From the NCBI GenBank assembly GCA_020217265.1, contig JAIWOS010000041.1:1-10134 (forward strand): a stretch of 10,134 nucleotides of DNA. Direction: 5' to 3'. Below, one piece after another: positions 2,879 to 8,942 of the stretch (the stretch's first letter is position 1; each line of letters starts with the position of its first letter). The position numbers were made by a program, and so were the translations under genes. Below the pieces are notes generated by a model. That model was given only the letters and a program-made list of their open reading frames with translations. It was not told the origin of the DNA and did not search any database. The stretch comes from Thiobacillus sp. (GTDB lineage: Bacteria; Pseudomonadota; Gammaproteobacteria; Burkholderiales; Thiobacillaceae).

Positions 2879-4939
2879 ATGACCCGCCAGATCCTCGTCA
2901 CCTCCGCCCTGCCCTACGCCAATGGCAGCATCCACCTCGGCCACCTGGTCGAATACATCCAGACCGACATCTGGGTGCGATTCCAGAAAATGCGCGGCCA
3001 CGACTGCCGCTACATGTGCGCCGACGACACCCACGGCACCGCGATCATGCTGCGCGCCGAAAAGGAAGGCATCACGCCTGAAACCCTGATCCAGCGCGTG
3101 TGGGACGAGCACACCGCCGACTTCGCGGGCTTCCACATCGGCTTCGACCACTACTACTCGACGCACTCGGAAGAAAACCGCCAACTCGCATCGAAGATCT
3201 ACCTCGCGCTGAAAGACGCCGGGCTGATCGAGGTGAAGACCATCGCCCAGATGTTCGACCCGGTGAAAAATCTTTTCCTGCCCGACCGCTTCATCAAGGG
3301 CGAGTGCCCCAAGTGCGGCGCGGCCGATCAGTACGGCGACAACTGCGAAGTCTGCGGCGCAACCTACAGCCCCACCGAACTGAAAAATCCCGTGTCGGCG
3401 GTGTCGGGCGCGACGCCGGTGCACAAGGATTCCGAGCATTACTTCTTCAAGCTCGGCGAGGCCGAGGCCTTTTTGCGCGAGTGGACGACCTCGGGCACGC
3501 TGCAAAGCGAAGCCGCCAACAAGATGCAGGAATGGTTTGCCTCGGGGCTATCCAACTGGGACATCAGCCGCGACGCGCCCTACTTCGGTTTCGAGATTCC
3601 CGGCGCGCCCGGCAAGTATTTCTACGTCTGGCTCGACGCGCCAGTGGGCTACATGGCGAGCTTCGCCAAATACGCGAAAGATACGGGCCTCGACTTCGAC
3701 GCCTGGTGGGGCAAGGACGCCAAGACCGAACTGGTGCATTTCATCGGTAAGGACATCCTCTATTTCCACGCGCTTTTCTGGCCGGCGATGCTGAAGTATT
3801 CCGGCCACCGCCTACCCACCGCCGTCTACGCGCACGGCTTCCTCACGGTCAACGGCCAGAAGATGTCGAAATCGCGCGGCACCTTCATCACCGCGCGCAG
3901 CTACCTCGACGCCGGGCTCAACCCCGAGTGGCTGCGCTACTACTTCGCCGCCAAGCTCAACGGCAGCATGGAAGACATCGATCTGAGCCTCGACGACTTC
4001 GTCGCGCGGGTGAATTCCGATCTGGTCGGCAAGTTCATCAACATCGCCAGCCGCACCGCCGGGTTCATCCACAAGAATTTCGACGGCAAGCTCGCCGAAG
4101 GCGTGGCCAACCTCGAACTCATCGGCGAGTTTCAGGCCGCCGCCGAAGCCATCGCCTGCCACTACGAAGCACGCGACTACGGCCGCGCGCTGCGCGAGAT
4201 CATGGCGCTCGCCGACCGCGCCAACCAGTACGTCGCCGACGAAAAGCCCTGGGAACTGGCGAAGAAACCCAAGGCCGTGTACCGGCTGCACGAGGTCTGC
4301 ACCGTCGCTTTGAATTGCTTCCGCCTGCTGACGCTGTACCTGAAGCCGGTGCTGCCCAAGCTCGCGGCCGAGGTCGAAGCCTTTTTGGCCATCGACCCGC
4401 TGAGCTGGGCCGACGCGCAGACCCTGTTCATCCGCCAGCGCATCAACGCCTACAGCCACCTCATGACCCGCATCGACCCGAAAGCCATCGACACCATGAT
4501 CGACGCCAACAAGCAGAACCTCGAACCCGCGCCGGCTCCGGCGCCTACGCGCCACGCCGAGGCGCAGGCGCATGCAGCGCAGCCGGTTGTGGCTGCTGCC
4601 CCAGTGGGTGAAACCATCAGCATCGACGACTTCGCCAAGATCGACCTGCGCATCGCGCGCATCGCCAACGCGGAACACGTCGAAGGCGCCGACAAGCTCT
4701 TGCGGCTCACGCTCGACCTCGGCGAACTCGGCACCCGCCAGGTGTTTGCCGGGATCAAATCCGCCTACGCGCCGGAAGCGCTGGTCGGGCGGCTCACCGT
4801 GATGGTCGCCAACCTCGCCCCGCGCAAGATGAAGTTCGGCATGAGCGAAGGCATGGTGCTGGCCGCTTCCGGTGACGCGCCCGGCCTTTTCATCCTGTCG
4901 CCCGATGCCGGTGCGCAGCCCGGCATGAAGGTGAAGTAA
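2879..4939 (+). CDS. metG: methionyl-tRNA synthetase with C-terminal tRNA-binding domain
   Basis: This cytoplasmic enzyme charges tRNA(Met) and initiator tRNA with methionine using ATP. The 686-residue length fits the long, dimeric MetRS form. The class I signature HLGH lies at residues 19-22 after LPYANGSI, and KMSKS at 328-332. A zinc knuckle has Cys143, Cys146, Cys156 and Cys159, with the same spacing as the E. coli four-cysteine type (CPKCG...CEVCG). A helical anticodon-binding domain follows, then an Ala/Pro-rich linker at about 549-577. The last domain (578-686; [27 protein letters not shown]) is the Trbp111-like OB fold used for tRNA binding and dimerisation. The ATG at 2879 gives the family N-terminus ([14 protein letters not shown]), although no Shine-Dalgarno sequence is visible. 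All key residues are intact. acyP follows after three bases and is probably co-transcribed. Confidence 0.98.
4928..4934 (+). promoter_or_regulatory. ribosome-binding site supporting the GTG start of acyP
   Basis: AAGGTGA inside the last codons of metG ends 8 bases before the GTG at 4943. It supports that GTG as the acyP start and suggests coupling to metG translation. Confidence 0.5.
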
Positions 4940-4942
4940 GCC

Positions 4943-5221
4943 GTGGACACCCGCCGCCTGCGCATCCACGGCCGCGTGCAGGGCGTGTGGTTCCGCGAAT
5001 CGATGCGACGCGAGGCGGAACGCCTGGAAATCACGGGCTGGGTGCGCAATCTGCCCGACGGCAGTGTGGAGGCGGTAGTCCAGGGCGAAACCGGTGCAGT
5101 CGAGACGCTGATCGCCTGGTCGCACCACGGCCCGCCGCTGGCGCGCGTCGAGCGGGTCGAAGTCGGGCCGGCCGACGGCCATTTCGACCGCTTCGAGAAG
5201 CGCGCCCACCCCGAATCCTGA
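4943..5221 (+). CDS. acyP: acylphosphatase
   Basis: This 92-residue protein is the normal size for an acylphosphatase, a small cytoplasmic enzyme that hydrolyses carboxyl-phosphate bonds in compounds such as acetyl phosphate or 1,3-bisphosphoglycerate in vitro; its cellular role in bacteria is unclear. Both signatures are present: [11 protein letters not shown] at residues 10-20, with catalytic Arg18 in the phosphate loop, and [12 protein letters not shown] at 32-43, with catalytic Asn36. The 18-residue distance between them equals that between Arg23 and Asn41 of the vertebrate muscle enzyme. The start is GTG, three bases after the metG stop codon, with AAGGTGA upstream. It is the last gene of the plus-strand run and faces the minus-strand small RNA. 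No good intrinsic terminator is seen for this direction. Confidence 0.95.
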
Positions 5222-5225
5222 ACGG

Positions 5226-5243
5226 CGGGCAAAAAAATGCCCG
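5226..5243. repeat. alternative hairpin overlapping the sRNA terminator
   Basis: CGGGCA (5226-5231) and TGCCCG (5238-5243) are inverted copies around a 6-base A/T loop. The right arm is shared with the main terminator stem (5239-5258), so the two hairpins exclude each other. On the minus strand it would form only in transcripts that read past the T-tract, placing the T's in a loop. For acyP transcripts it offers a small 3' stem without a T-tract. Confidence 0.5.
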
Positions 5244-5258
5244 GCTCGAGAGCCGGGC
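5231..5258 (-). terminator. intrinsic terminator of the minus-strand small RNA
   Basis: Arms GCCCGGCTC (5258-5250) and GAGCCGGGC (5247-5239) form a perfect 9-bp stem; in practice the tip opens to a loop of about 6 bases. On the minus strand it is followed by A and then seven T's (5237-5231). On the plus strand the same stem is followed by TTAGGATCC, so it is directional. The U-rich end would also suit Hfq binding. It lies about 195 bases beyond the dnaE stop codon and could also end dnaE read-through. Confidence 0.88.
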
Positions 5259-5325
5259 TTAGGATCCACCAAAGGAGGAGGATTGGAGGAGACAACACTG
5301 ATCGCCATTGCGACGCCTCAGTGTT
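5231..5325 (-). ncRNA. probable anti-Shine-Dalgarno small regulatory RNA
   Basis: An RNA of about 95 nt, with a complete promoter upstream and an intrinsic terminator downstream. Its 5' end forms a stem: AACACTGA (5325-5318) pairs with TCAGTGTT (5301-5294). Inside, TCGC and GCGA (5313-5310, 5305-5302) make a second short stem with an AATG loop and a 4-base bulge. Next comes an apparently unpaired pyrimidine stretch (5293-5259) with two blocks complementary to ribosome-binding sites: TCTCCTCC (5292-5285) and TCCTCCTCCTTT (5282-5271). The second contains CCTCCTTT, like the 16S rRNA 3' tail. The terminator hairpin closes the molecule. No start codon with a sensible frame makes it a small mRNA. 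The design resembles known CU-rich trans-acting sRNAs, such as the alphaproteobacterial CuckooRNA family and, as I recall, NcS27-type sRNAs of Burkholderia. I infer that it pairs with mRNA translation-start regions, probably with Hfq. Family membership is not established. Confidence 0.78.
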
Positions 5326-5331
5326 ATTAGA

Positions 5332-5360
5332 ATTTTCTAATATTAGAAAAGCATTGTCAA
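5332..5360 (-). promoter_or_regulatory. sigma70 promoter of the small RNA
   Basis: Read on the minus strand, TTGACA (5360-5355) is a perfect -35 box, followed by exactly 17 bases and GAAAAT (5337-5332), a 4 of 6 match to the -10 box. The expected start, about seven bases further, is A5325, which is the first base of the 5' stem-loop. A better -10 match, TCTAAT (5331-5326), has the wrong distance (23 bases). The region is AT-rich, unlike its surroundings. Confidence 0.75.
5333..5350. promoter_or_regulatory. 18-bp perfect palindrome in the sRNA promoter, probable operator
   Basis: TTTTCTAATATTAGAAAA is a perfect palindrome filling most of the space between the -35 and -10 boxes and covering most of the -10. 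A further TTAGAA half-site lies at 5327-5332, so TTAGAA/TTCTAA occurs three times (5327, 5335, 5343) at 8-base steps. A dimeric repressor bound here would block RNA polymerase. The regulator is unknown; I do not recognise the site as a standard Fur, LexA or Fnr box. Confidence 0.6.
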
Positions 5361-5419
5361 TAAATATGTCGGCATAAATGCGGATCTAGTAGGTTTGTGC
5401 CCCAACGCTGCGGTTCTGA

Positions 5420-5439
5420 CGCAACAAACGGCCGTTGCG
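5420..5439 (-). other. short hairpin after the dnaE stop codon
   Basis: CGCAAC and GTTGCG (5420-5425, 5434-5439) can pair, with the perfect palindrome AACGGCCGTT (5427-5436) overlapping the loop. It lies 13 bases past the dnaE stop codon. No T-tract follows on either strand, so it is probably not an intrinsic terminator. The rest of 5361-5452 shows nothing recognisable. Confidence 0.3.
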
Positions 5440-5452
5440 GCCCGCGGCCACA

Positions 5453-8400
5453 TCAATAAATGACGCTGACCGCCTCGGGTTTGAGCCAGCCGCCCAGGGA
5501 TTCCAGCAGCCGGTCGTCCAGCCTCACCCGCCAGCCCTCGCCCAGCCGCACCCGGCATTGCGCCTGCGGATTGCGGTATTCGACCCAGACCGGGCAGCCG
5601 CCCTCCTGCTGGGTGTAGGGCGAGAGCAGTTCGGCCAGCTTGCGTCCGCTGCCGGTCTGGCCGTGACACGCGCCGTTGCACGTGAGCCGCAAGCCCTGGG
5701 CGAAACGCGTACGGGCACCGGCGAGATCGTAGATGCGCTCGGCCGTGACGCGCAGACCGCCGGAATAGTCGTCGCGGCTGACCTTGCCCTCGATCACCAG
5801 GAGCGCATCCTCCCTCAGCAGCGGGCGGTGCTGTTCGTACAGTTCGTTGAAGATCGTCACTTCGACCTGGCCGCTGGCGTCGTCGAGCAGCAGGATGAGC
5901 ATCTTGCCGCGCCGCGTCATCTGGGTGCGCAGCGAAACCGCCACGCCGGCGAGGATGACCGGCTCGCGCGCGGGCTCCAGGTTGGCCAGCCGCCGCTTGG
6001 CGAACGACGCGACTTCGGCCTCGTAGGCGGTGAAGGGATGACCGGAGAAATAAAACCCCATCGCCGTTTTTTCCTGCAGGAGCTTCTCGGGCTCCGGCCA
6101 GGGGGGCGTGTCCACCAGCGCTTCCTCGCTTTCGACCACTTCGCCGAAAAGACCAACCTGCCCACCGTTGCGCGCCGCCTGGTCGGCCGCGTCGAGCGCG
6201 CGCCCAACCGAGGCGAAGAGGCTGGCGCGATGCGCGTTGAGCGTGTCGAACGCGCCGGCTTTCACCAGCGCTTCGAGCACGCGCCGGTTGAGGTAGCGCT
6301 TGTCGACCCGGCGCACCAGATCGAACAGGCCCTGAAACGGGCCGTTCGCGCGGCGCTCCTCGACGATGGCGTTGATCGCCGCCTCACCCGTTCCCTTGAT
6401 CGCGCCCAGCCCATAGCGGATTTCGGTTCTGGAAACCGGCTCGAAGCGATGCAGCGACTGGTTGATGTCCGGCGGCAGAATGGTCAGGCCATTGGCGACG
6501 CAGTCCTCGATGAAAACGCGCAGCTTGTCGGTGTCGGACAATTCCGACGACATCGTCGCCGCCATGAATTCCGCCGGGTAGTAGGCCTTGAGCCAGGCGG
6601 TGTGGTAGGCAACGAGCGCGTACGCGGCCGAGTGCGACTTGTTGAAACCGTATTCGGCAAATTTCTCCATCAGGTCGAACAGGCGTTCGGCCAGTTTTGC
6701 GTCCACGCCCCGCTTCGACGCGCCTTCGAGAAAAATCTGCCGCTGCTTGGCCATTTCCTCGGGTTTCTTCTTGCCCATCGCGCGCCGCAGCATGTCGGCG
6801 CCGCCGAGCGTGTAGCCGGCAAGTATCTGCGCGACGAGCATCACCTGTTCCTGGTAGACGATGATGCCGTAGGTCGATTTCAACACGTCGGCGAGATCGG
6901 GGTGGAAGTACCACTCGGGCTTGCCGACGCCGGTCTTGCGCTGTTCGTTCTTGCGAACGATGAAGTCGTCGACCATGCCCGACCCCAGCGGGCCGGGACG
7001 GTTCAACGCCATAAGCGCGATGATGTCCTCGAAGCAGTCGCCCTTGAGTTTCTTTTCCAGATCTTTCGCCGAGCGCGATTCGGACTGGAACACCGCGGTG
7101 GTGTTACCGTCGGCAAAGAGCCGGTACACCGCCGGGTCGTCGAGACGCAGGTCTTCGAGCCGGAAGTTTTCCATGCCCGGATTGCGGCGCACGAAGTGCA
7201 CGGCCTCATTCAGGATGGTGAGCGTGCGTAGCCCCAGGAAGTCGAACTTGACCAGGCCGATGGCCTCGACGTCGTCCTTGTCGTACTGCGAGACAACCGA
7301 ATCCGAGCCTTCGGCACGATACAGCGGGCAGAAATCCGTGAGCTTGCCCGGCGCGATCAGCACGCCGCCGGCGTGCATGCCGACGTTGCGCGTGAGTTCC
7401 TCGAGCTTTTCCGCGAGGCCAAAGAGTTCGCGCACCTCTTCTTCCTCGTCGTAGCGCTCCTTCAGCTGCGGCTCCATTTCCAGCGCCTTTTTCAGTGACA
7501 CCGGCTTCACGCCTTCGATCGGCACCAGCTTGGAGAGCTTGTCGCAGTAGGTGTAGGGCATGTCGAGCACGCGCCCGACGTCGCGGATCACCGACTTGGA
7601 GCCGAGCGTGCCGAAGGTGGCGATCTGCGACACCGCGCCGTGGCCGTATTTGTCCTTGACGTACTGGATGACCTTTTCGCGCTTGTCCTGGCAGAAATCG
7701 ATGTCGAAGTCGGGCATCGACACCCGCTCGGGATTCAGGAAGCGTTCGAACAGCAGGTCGTATTCCAGCGGGTCGAGGTCGGTGATGAGGAGCGCATAGG
7801 CGACCAGCGAGCCCGCGCCCGAACCGCGTCCCGGCCCCACCGGCACGTCGTTGGCCTTGGCCCAGGAAATGAAGTCAGAAACGATGAGGAAGTAGCCCGG
7901 AAAGCCCATCTGGATGATGGTCGCAAGCTCGAATTCGAGACGTTCGACATAGCGGGCGCGTTGGGTCGCGCGCTCGGTGGCGTCGGGGTAGAGCGCCTTG
8001 AGTCGATCTTCGAGGCCGTCGTAGGCGCGCTGACGGATGTAGTCGTCGAGGCTCATCCCGTCCGGCGTCGGAAAATCCGGCAGGCGGCTCTTGCCGAGCG
8101 TGAGCTCTAGGTTGCAGCGCTTGGCGATCTCGACGCTGTTCTCAAGCGCCTCGGGCAGGTCGGCAAACAGCTCCGCCATTTCCTCGGGCGTCTTCAGATA
8201 CTGCTCTCCGGTGAAGACGCGCGGCCGGCGCGGATCGCCGAGCATCATGCCTTCGGCGATGCACACCCGTGCCTCGTGCGCCTGGAAGTCGTCTGCCGAC
8301 AGGAACTGCACCGGATGCGTCGCCACGCTGGGCAGATTAAGCTCGTGGCCGAGCTCGAGCAGGCCATCGATCAGGCGTTCGGCGTGCGGCTGGCCGTAAC

Positions 8401-8914
8401 GTTGCAGTTCAAGATAGAAACGGCCGGGAAAGCAGGCCGCCCAGTGCTCGGCTTCGCGCCGGGCGGCGTCGACCTTGTCGTCGAGGAGGGCTTGCGCGAT
8501 GCTGCCCTGACTGCCGCCCGACAGCGCAATGAGGCCGTCGCTGCCCTCGGCGAACCAGGCCGGATCGATCTCCGCGTGGCCGCGATGCAGGTTCTCCAGG
8601 AAAGCGCGCGACAGCAGCTCGCACAGCCGTCGGTAGCCGGCCGCGTGCTGAACCAGCAGCAGCAGGCGCGACGGGCGCGCGCGGTCGGCGTGATTCGTCA
8701 CCCAGACGTCGCAGCCGAAGACCGGTTTCACGCCCTTGCCGCGCGCCGCGCGGTAGAACTTCACCCAGCCGAAGGTATTCGACAGGTCGGTGAGCGCGAG
8801 CGCCGGCATGCCGGCGTCTTTCGCCTTCGCAACCGCGTCGTCGAGCCGCACCAGGCCGTCGGTCACCGAGAATTCGGAGTGCAGGCGAAGGTGGACGAAA
8901 CGCGGATCGGACAT
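5453..8914 (-). CDS. dnaE: DNA polymerase III alpha subunit
   Basis: This is the replicative polymerase catalytic subunit, about 1153 residues, near the E. coli length of 1160. The order is an N-terminal PHP domain, palm, thumb and fingers, a helix-hairpin-helix region, and a C-terminal OB domain with a tail. Catalytic aspartates are visible in MPDFDIDF (D402, D404) and KFDFLGL (D558), matching E. coli D401, D403 and D555. An internal beta-clamp motif QVGLF lies at 919-923 (E. coli QADMF 920-924). The PHP domain reads LRLHSEFS and TDLSN where metal-binding versions have HxH and TDH, so, as in E. coli, it probably lacks nuclease activity and proofreading relies on DnaQ. I prefer the ATG at 8914 because MSDPRFVHLR matches the usual N-terminus and the motif positions then agree. 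An ATG at 8926 would add four residues; neither start has a Shine-Dalgarno sequence. The gene has its own promoter after the efp terminator. Confidence 0.97.
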   Translation of the reverse strand: MSDPRFVHLRLHSEFSVTDGLVRLDDAVAKAKDAGMPALALTDLSNTFGWVKFYRAARGKGVKPVFGCDVWVTNHADRARPSRLLLLVQHAAGYRRLCELLSRAFLENLHRGHAEIDPAWFAEGSDGLIALSGGSQGSIAQALLDDKVDAARREAEHWAACFPGRFYLELQRYGQPHAERLIDGLLELGHELNLPSVATHPVQFLSADDFQAHEARVCIAEGMMLGDPRRPRVFTGEQYLKTPEEMAELFADLPEALENSVEIAKRCNLELTLGKSRLPDFPTPDGMSLDDYIRQRAYDGLEDRLKALYPDATERATQRARYVERLEFELATIIQMGFPGYFLIVSDFISWAKANDVPVGPGRGSGAGSLVAYALLITDLDPLEYDLLFERFLNPERVSMPDFDIDFCQDKREKVIQYVKDKYGHGAVSQIATFGTLGSKSVIRDVGRVLDMPYTYCDKLSKLVPIEGVKPVSLKKALEMEPQLKERYDEEEEVRELFGLAEKLEELTRNVGMHAGGVLIAPGKLTDFCPLYRAEGSDSVVSQYDKDDVEAIGLVKFDFLGLRTLTILNEAVHFVRRNPGMENFRLEDLRLDDPAVYRLFADGNTTAVFQSESRSAKDLEKKLKGDCFEDIIALMALNRPGPLGSGMVDDFIVRKNEQRKTGVGKPEWYFHPDLADVLKSTYGIIVYQEQVMLVAQILAGYTLGGADMLRRAMGKKKPEEMAKQRQIFLEGASKRGVDAKLAERLFDLMEKFAEYGFNKSHSAAYALVAYHTAWLKAYYPAEFMAATMSSELSDTDKLRVFIEDCVANGLTILPPDINQSLHRFEPVSRTEIRYGLGAIKGTGEAAINAIVEERRANGPFQGLFDLVRRVDKRYLNRRVLEALVKAGAFDTLNAHRASLFASVGRALDAADQAARNGGQVGLFGEVVESEEALVDTPPWPEPEKLLQEKTAMGFYFSGHPFTAYEAEVASFAKRRLANLEPAREPVILAGVAVSLRTQMTRRGKMLILLLDDASGQVEVTIFNELYEQHRPLLREDALLVIEGKVSRDDYSGGLRVTAERIYDLAGARTRFAQGLRLTCNGACHGQTGSGRKLAELLSPYTQQEGGCPVWVEYRNPQAQCRVRLGEGWRVRLDDRLLESLGGWLKPEAVSVIY

Positions 8915-8942
8915 GGGGTGGACCATGGAAATTCAGACCGGC

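Follow-up and report, generated by a model that had tools for sequence, protein, structure and literature searches.

The described family closest to the RNA considered here is Rfam RF02278, the Betaproteobacteria toxic small RNA. Members of the family are NcS03, NcS05, NcS27 and NcS62 of Burkholderia cenocepacia, four RNAs with mapped starts (PMC4603805), and Hsnc059, Hsnc063, Hsnc086 and Hsnc107, the four members of Herbaspirillum (PMC7011215). The word "toxic" in the name stems from growth inhibition observed upon cloning in E. coli (PMC4603805, PMC5688073). Overexpression of NcS27 slows growth, and the authors, who describe these molecules as "double-hairpin RNAs", see a likeness to the NmsR RNAs; the levels of NcS27 and its kin rise in biofilm, under starvation and in glucose medium (PMC5688073). 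NcS27 is also summarized in a review (PMC10987360). For S17 of Bordetella pertussis, a preprint gives reporter evidence, finds the CU region conserved across Betaproteobacteria and states that S17 resembles RF02278 (PMC11722255). Exponentially growing E. coli was not impaired by S17 (PMC11722255), and therefore the label "toxic" need not apply to the RNA of this study. The anti-Shine-Dalgarno motifs of the NmsRs have likewise been examined with reporters (PMC5362039).

The window, which is the whole 10,134-nucleotide stretch of Thiobacillus DNA analysed here, yields one above-threshold match in an Rfam scan, the search that an earlier note on this DNA had proposed. The match is to RF02278 at 5294-5231 on the minus strand, with 52.4 bits against a gathering score of 50, and is aligned over positions 1-64, the whole model. 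The same note had expected standard gene finders to leave the gap empty, yet an Rfam-based annotation would fill 5231-5294. A genus model (R1), made from relatives plus the window's own sequence, matches 5231-5325 at 107.7 bits. Two hairpins with CU-rich stretches, the second being an intrinsic terminator, are the architecture of RF02278 and are found here, with the exact pairing of the first (SL2) uncertain. The NmsRb model RF02877 aligns full-length at a relaxed threshold, including the 5′ stem, and its 30.8 bits against a cut-off of 52 leave the RNA outside that family. The locus almost certainly encodes an RF02278-family sRNA. It is a member of RF02278 that resembles NmsRb in build without passing the NmsRb model, and it is not new in kind, being another copy of a described family.

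The predicted 95-nt transcript (5231..5325, minus strand), delimited by promoter, fold, the RF02278 match and R1, lies where the earlier note had placed it. It occupies a gap of 231 bases (5222-5452), the size given before, that separates two convergent genes. The acylphosphatase gene acyP (4943..5221, plus strand), recognized from its reading frame and a family scan, ends at 5221. The reading frame on the other side (5453..8926, minus strand), which we take to be dnaE from the context given in the note, ends at 5453; its closest named relative is in a Thiobacillus MAG, at 91% identity. The window's assembly (2.14 Mb in 231 contigs, 84.6% complete) holds one copy of the sRNA. Among 24 Thiobacillus loci, counting the window and leaving aside nine genus loci fetched later, dnaE adjoins the sRNA in all 24, metG was seen in 22 and acyP in 20. 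The adjacency to dnaE is also kept in a locus of another family (L030). A general tie between the sRNA and dnaE was considered and rejected, since among 80 dnaE loci taken from named genomes only two, both labelled Thiobacillus, carry the sRNA. A small ORF within the sRNA was rejected as well: a long reading frame opens at an ATG in the loop of the first stem-loop of the window's sRNA, and this ATG is missing from several Thiobacillus copies (e.g. L006, L011 and L019).

All parts of the RNA are read from the minus strand. The 5′ stem-loop SL1 (5294..5325), obtained from the fold and from covariation in helices 1 and 2, has an 8-bp outer stem in which 5325-5318 pair with 5301-5294, a 4-bp inner hairpin and a GCAAU loop. 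CU block 1, TCTCCTCC (5285..5292), is an anti-Shine-Dalgarno stretch that is part of the invariant core of the alignment. CU block 2, TCCTCCTCCTTT (5271..5282), falls mostly within the loop of SL2, a weak middle hairpin (5265..5287) whose Rfam-like form pairs UCCA 5287-5284 with UGGA 5268-5265; CU block 1 overlaps its 5′ arm. The pairing of SL2 differs between the single-sequence fold, RNAalifold and the Rfam model. The earlier note was right that two CU blocks are present, and its fully open stretch is to be amended in that block 2 sits mostly in the loop of the weak SL2. The intrinsic terminator (5231..5258), supported by a terminator scan and by covariation, consists of a GC-rich stem at 5258-5239 with a CTCG loop, followed by an A and then by the seven T's already noted; the stem measures 8 bp rather than the 9 bp claimed. 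The sequence CCTCCTTT, said to occur in duplicate, is found once. Of the 32 Thiobacillus copies in the alignment, 23 have it and nine lack it. The 16S tail to which the CU block was likened has no match in the window's MAG, so the comparison with 16S is tentative. The 95-nt RNA folds at a minimum free energy of -38.9 kcal/mol (z -4.6), a stability reached by none of 200 shuffles; the opposite strand of the locus folds well too (z -3.7).

The sRNA was found in 47 of 60 genomes in a search of relatives, the window's own included, and in 32 of 35 other Thiobacillus genomes; the three misses are 82, 83 and 75% complete (G007, G018 and G022, respectively). The alignment joins the window's sequence to 31 others of the genus, giving 32 sequences in 31 distinct rows. 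These copies had been selected by the first 11 bases of TGTCTCCTCCAATCC, and the whole of TGTCTCCTCCAATCC is present in 32/32 of them. The sequence departs in one copy (L145), which was left out of the alignment; this copy has the altered core CGTCTCCTCAATCC, and its promoter lacks the palindrome described below. Nine base pairs change on both sides, against a mean of 3.6 in shuffled alignments, and none of 500 shuffles reaches nine. Under the given structure 95.5% of alignment cells pair, versus 32.0 to 40.4% for slid structures. The 5′ stem, which lies outside the Rfam model, covaries (helices 1 and 2), and the terminator (helix 4) has three pairs with two-sided changes. SL2 is invariant across the 31 distinct rows, and RNAalifold favours another pairing there. 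The check on relatives that had been suggested therefore finds covarying stems and a TGTCTCCTCCAATCC block kept in the 32 selected copies. The covariation, the RF02278 match and the constant dnaE neighbour together bear out the claim of a stand-alone sRNA gene. Two Thiobacillus genomes (G034 and G002) contain a second, shorter RNA-like element, found by the RF02278 search and by sequence, in which TGTCTCCTCCGTT is immediately followed by a strong terminator and a T run (L149:1501-1545, minus strand; L151:1501-1545, plus strand). One genome of the same order (G042, locus L152) gives nine RF02278 matches, four of which, counting one weaker, lie within about 4 kb.

The promoter matches the earlier description. 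A perfect -35 box TTGACA (5355..5360, minus strand) is followed after 17 bases by the -10 box GAAAAT (5332..5337, minus strand), which is weak because only four of six positions match. The predicted start at 5325 on the minus strand coincides with the first base of the 8-bp stem of SL1. An upstream TTGACA occurs in all 32 aligned Thiobacillus copies, and TTGACA-17-GAAAAT is the sole sigma-70-like site found within 4900-5700 (shuffles give a mean of 0.2). Over the -10 box and the predicted start lies an 18-bp palindrome, TATTAGA-AAAT-TCTAATA (5325..5342, minus strand), which we propose as a repressor site; the earlier note mentions neither this palindrome nor a link to sulfur. In the 32 sRNA promoters TATTAGA-N4-TCTAATA is exact in 21, has one mismatch in six and two mismatches in five. 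That the palindrome is a plain promoter element is unlikely, as the L145 sRNA has a different promoter and further copies of the palindrome stand ahead of other genes.

When one mismatch is allowed, a genome-wide search finds the palindrome in 34 of 36 genus genomes at 70 sites in the forward column, while the reversed pattern gives none. Twenty-seven of the 70 sites are sRNA promoters, and 40 of the other 43 were fetched for reading of the nearest gene. At 30 of these 40 the palindrome precedes rhodanese-dsrE2, DUF302, peroxiredoxin or RND-adaptor genes: rhodanese with downstream dsrE2 at 14 (gene start 20-28 bases from the palindrome), DUF302 at ten, an RND adaptor at three, peroxiredoxin at two and a second rhodanese at one. 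The remaining sites are next to an NsrR/Hmp-like pair (four) or a small secreted protein (four), or have no gene found (two), and one of the latter (L199) ends at a contig edge, with a rhodanese recognizable by eye. The names SoeB, SoeC, tusA, Hmp, peroxiredoxin, rhodanese and RND adaptor are provisional ones, from our reading of the sequences. Family scans support DsrE2 (264 bits, cut-off 210) and, near palindrome sites, a DmsC-like protein, a 4Fe-4S protein, DUF302 and an Rrf2 protein. The DUF302 protein, which has a signal-like start, is encoded 35-40 bases from the palindrome at its ten sites (L203:1624-2163, minus strand, and similarly in L201, L204, L210, L215, L219, L221, L224, L227 and L228). 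The small secreted proteins, 3′ of the palindrome in L206, L207, L216 and L222, share the motif YVSPAPSL/YLSPAPSL, and the one of L206 has no Pfam or NCBIfam match. Because of its nearest genes, the palindrome-linked set looks like a reactive-sulfur regulon. What appears to be new here is that the promoter of the sRNA carries the same DNA signal as these reactive-sulfur genes.

A candidate for the protein that reads this signal is an ArsR repressor of the BigR/SqrR/YgaV type. At one Thiobacillus locus (L231) an RND-adaptor gene preceded by AATTAGAATACTCTAATG adjoins a BigR-like ArsR gene, and at two other such loci (L232 and L234) similar sites precede a TolC-like gene; matrix scoring gave no good operator-like site at the BigR-like loci L233 and L235. 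With a threshold of 9, chosen after the scores had been seen, three of five Thiobacillus BigR-like ArsR loci score at or above it versus none of 20 other ArsR loci (p 0.004), all ArsR loci coming from one search. A wider set, to which five plasmid loci hand-picked among 40 listed were added, gives 5/10 versus 0/20 with L259 omitted, its site lying away from ArsR, and 6/10 when the best site in the locus is counted. Since the plasmid loci were hand-picked and the threshold is post hoc, the argument is confined to the Thiobacillus loci. The Thiobacillus ArsR protein carries two cysteines, presumably at positions like those of SqrR. The ArsR of L233 reaches 76.1 bits with the BigR model NF040642, below its cut-off of 155, and passes the general ArsR/SmtB model NF033788 (86.2 bits, cut-off 55).

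The comparison extends to E. coli, where YgaV is a sulfide-responsive repressor that footprints near the ygaV start and sigma sites (PMC9774250). The upstream region of ygaV contains AATTTAGAAAATACTTAAA, which follows the reported start by a few bases. This AT-rich site around the transcription start seems akin to those of the sRNA promoters; the Thiobacillus palindrome instead lies over the -10 box and predicted start. Using a matrix from 22 distant sRNA promoters, described below, the ygaV site is second in 199,900 bases of K-12; over the region upstream of ygaV, one column-shuffled matrix in 300 equals this score. With the Thiobacillus matrix it ranks third, the top E. coli match lying inside opgC by position. 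The accessible text of PMC7315123, PMC10451225, PMC9774250 and PMC12423496 states one operator, the SqrR site ATTC-N8-GAAT, which differs from the Thiobacillus palindrome (PMC9774250 for the site); in these portions, and in those of PMC5823870, the letters of a BigR operator were not found. Control of the sRNA promoter by a sulfur-responsive ArsR protein is an evenly balanced proposition, and a promoter switch common to the sRNA and the reactive-sulfur genes, drawn from comparison of sequences, may be judged about equally for and against.

Alternatively, the same RF02278 sRNA may respond to growth phase or to the status of carbon or nitrogen, as its counterparts do in Burkholderia or Neisseria, with the palindrome serving another regulator, such as an Rrf2/NsrR-type or redox protein. 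The rise of NcS27 and its kin in biofilm, starvation and glucose medium (PMC5688073) is in agreement with this possibility. The palindrome also lies between NsrR-like and Hmp-like genes at four of 40 sites, where the NsrR-like protein scores 129.9 bits with the NsrR model (cut-off 182). Nevertheless, a regulator of that kind fits poorly with the 30 of 40 sites that precede rhodanese, DUF302, peroxiredoxin and RND-adaptor genes, and with the resemblance of the palindrome to the ygaV promoter. We regard this explanation as a serious but less probable one.

Matches to the sRNA are not confined to the order. Among 369 genomes drawn from across the class, 103 match at E<=0.001, the window's own included, and only three of these matches pass the Rfam cut-off, namely the own genome and two of the same order. 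Outside the order 67 loci were examined, comprising the 27 best and 40 weaker ones. On inspection by eye the 27 show both a CU core and a terminator, and 35 of the 40 have CTCCTC at the expected place by pattern. These RF02278-like sRNAs (L033-L059 and L261-L300, ACTCCTCCATCCTCCTTTGGTGGTTT plus terminator) all score below the Rfam cut-off. The RF02278-type family looks wider than its name. At 22 of the 67 loci TTGAC/T is followed by an operator form, ATATTAGA, with a degenerate right arm. Away from the sRNA this form gives seven matches in 24 chosen genomes, without common function; one precedes a molybdopterin oxidoreductase, which we take to be SoeA.

The carriers are enriched for soxB and dsrA. 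With match limits of about E 1e-100 or better for soxB and 6e-33 or better for dsrA, one or both genes are found in 87 of 102 sRNA-positive and 76 of 266 sRNA-negative genomes, the own genome excluded. With one genome per family the figures are 38 of 44 sRNA-positive versus 33 of 113 sRNA-negative families; this count handles kinship to the family level only, includes weak matches and assumes the families of unlisted genomes from list order. By hand tally, soxB or dsrA occurs in all 22 operator-bearing carriers versus 36 of the 45 that lack an operator (p 0.025). From these comparisons it is conceivable, at slightly under even chance, that in Thiobacillus and many gammaproteobacterial sulfur oxidisers an RF02278-related anti-Shine-Dalgarno sRNA belongs directly to an ArsR regulon that senses persulfides. 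Reactive sulfur would remove the repressor, and the sRNA would redirect translation while the sulfur-transfer genes switch on. In that case RF02278 would represent a single branch of a larger sulfur-linked family that extends well beyond the Betaproteobacteria.

The mode of action is deduced from the relatives. A trans-acting sRNA directed at ribosome-binding sites is the best-supported reading, through RF02278 membership and the experiments on NmsRA (PMC5362039) and S17 (PMC11722255). This part of the earlier proposal stands, while its "16S tail in duplicate" was inexact. The reporter evidence for S17 and the NmsRs supports the anti-Shine-Dalgarno mode, and the Thiobacillus sRNA very probably acts in this way. 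Another possibility is that the RNA mainly sponges a protein through its CU-rich loops or pairs with one dedicated mRNA, its Shine-Dalgarno complementarity being incidental. A search for exact targets in 36 genus genomes might speak for this, as few conserved genes have the 10-base complement before ATG. Exact GGAGGAGACA-N2-9-ATG matches occur in 17 of the 36, and the recurrent ones precede genes that we name, by reading of the sequence, glmM-like (five genomes) and hppA-like (two). Several of the others start reading frames of very short length, and one falls on the sRNA locus. At the glmM-like genes (L323, L326, L327, L329 and L336) the GGAGGAGACA just before the start complements a stretch of the sRNA core exactly. 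The reporter evidence for related sRNAs (PMC11722255, PMC5362039) and the CU core being the non-varying part of the RNA both argue against a sponge or a single target, and this alternative is improbable. The remaining one, that there is no gene and that a terminator common to the convergent genes lies next to a chance promoter, draws on the convergent arrangement and the strong hairpin on the opposite strand and is practically dismissed by the Rfam match, the covarying 5′ stem, the invariant CU core and TTGACA in 32/32 copies.

We hold with good confidence that the locus is both a stand-alone RF02278 sRNA gene and a source of anti-Shine-Dalgarno action. Family membership, architecture, conservation and covariation are established by sequence, and repression at ribosome-binding sites comes from experiments on relatives. 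In the proposed pathway, a sigma-70-type promoter would produce an RNA of about 95 nt, in which a 5′ stem-loop is followed by CU block 1, then by a weak hairpin that displays CU block 2 and finally by the intrinsic terminator. Through these blocks the RNA would pair with several mRNAs at their Shine-Dalgarno regions and reduce translation of them. A BigR/SqrR/YgaV-type ArsR protein, the putative repressor, would occupy the palindrome over the -10 box and start, and would release it as reactive sulfur builds up, so that the sRNA is made. The sRNA would presumably be co-produced with the rhodanese-dsrE2, DUF302, peroxiredoxin and RND-efflux genes and may, through its putative targets, trim other functions while the cell oxidises sulfur or is under sulfide stress. 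Among the matches listed in the open-licence PMC literature, no paper joins an RF02278-type sRNA with a sulfur-responsive repressor. If this reading of the promoter is true, sulfur oxidisers gain a post-transcriptional arm of the sulfide response. A single repressor and a single promoter would then be enough to test which signal naturally governs one branch of the sRNA family.

The Thiobacillus sRNA thus shares with RF02278 the sequence and structure, the CU stretches opposite ribosome-binding sites and the terminator. According to its description in PMC11722255, by which the likeness is judged, S17/S17S of Bordetella pertussis shares two CU-rich sites, 1 and 2, that target ribosome-binding sites, and a factor-independent terminator. 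S17S is, however, processed from a longer RNA made from a BvgA-dependent promoter, whereas the start of the Thiobacillus sRNA is predicted just before SL1. The Neisseria RNAs NmsRA and NmsRB (RF02877), as they are described, also have three stem-loops, with a CU stretch between SL1 and SL2 and a CU loop on SL2; they form a tandem pair, unlike the single Thiobacillus sRNA. Copy number differs likewise, with one in the window's genome and four in Burkholderia cenocepacia. Beyond the RF02278 model, the Thiobacillus sRNA has an extra covarying 5′ stem, a palindrome in its promoter and dnaE as its neighbour.
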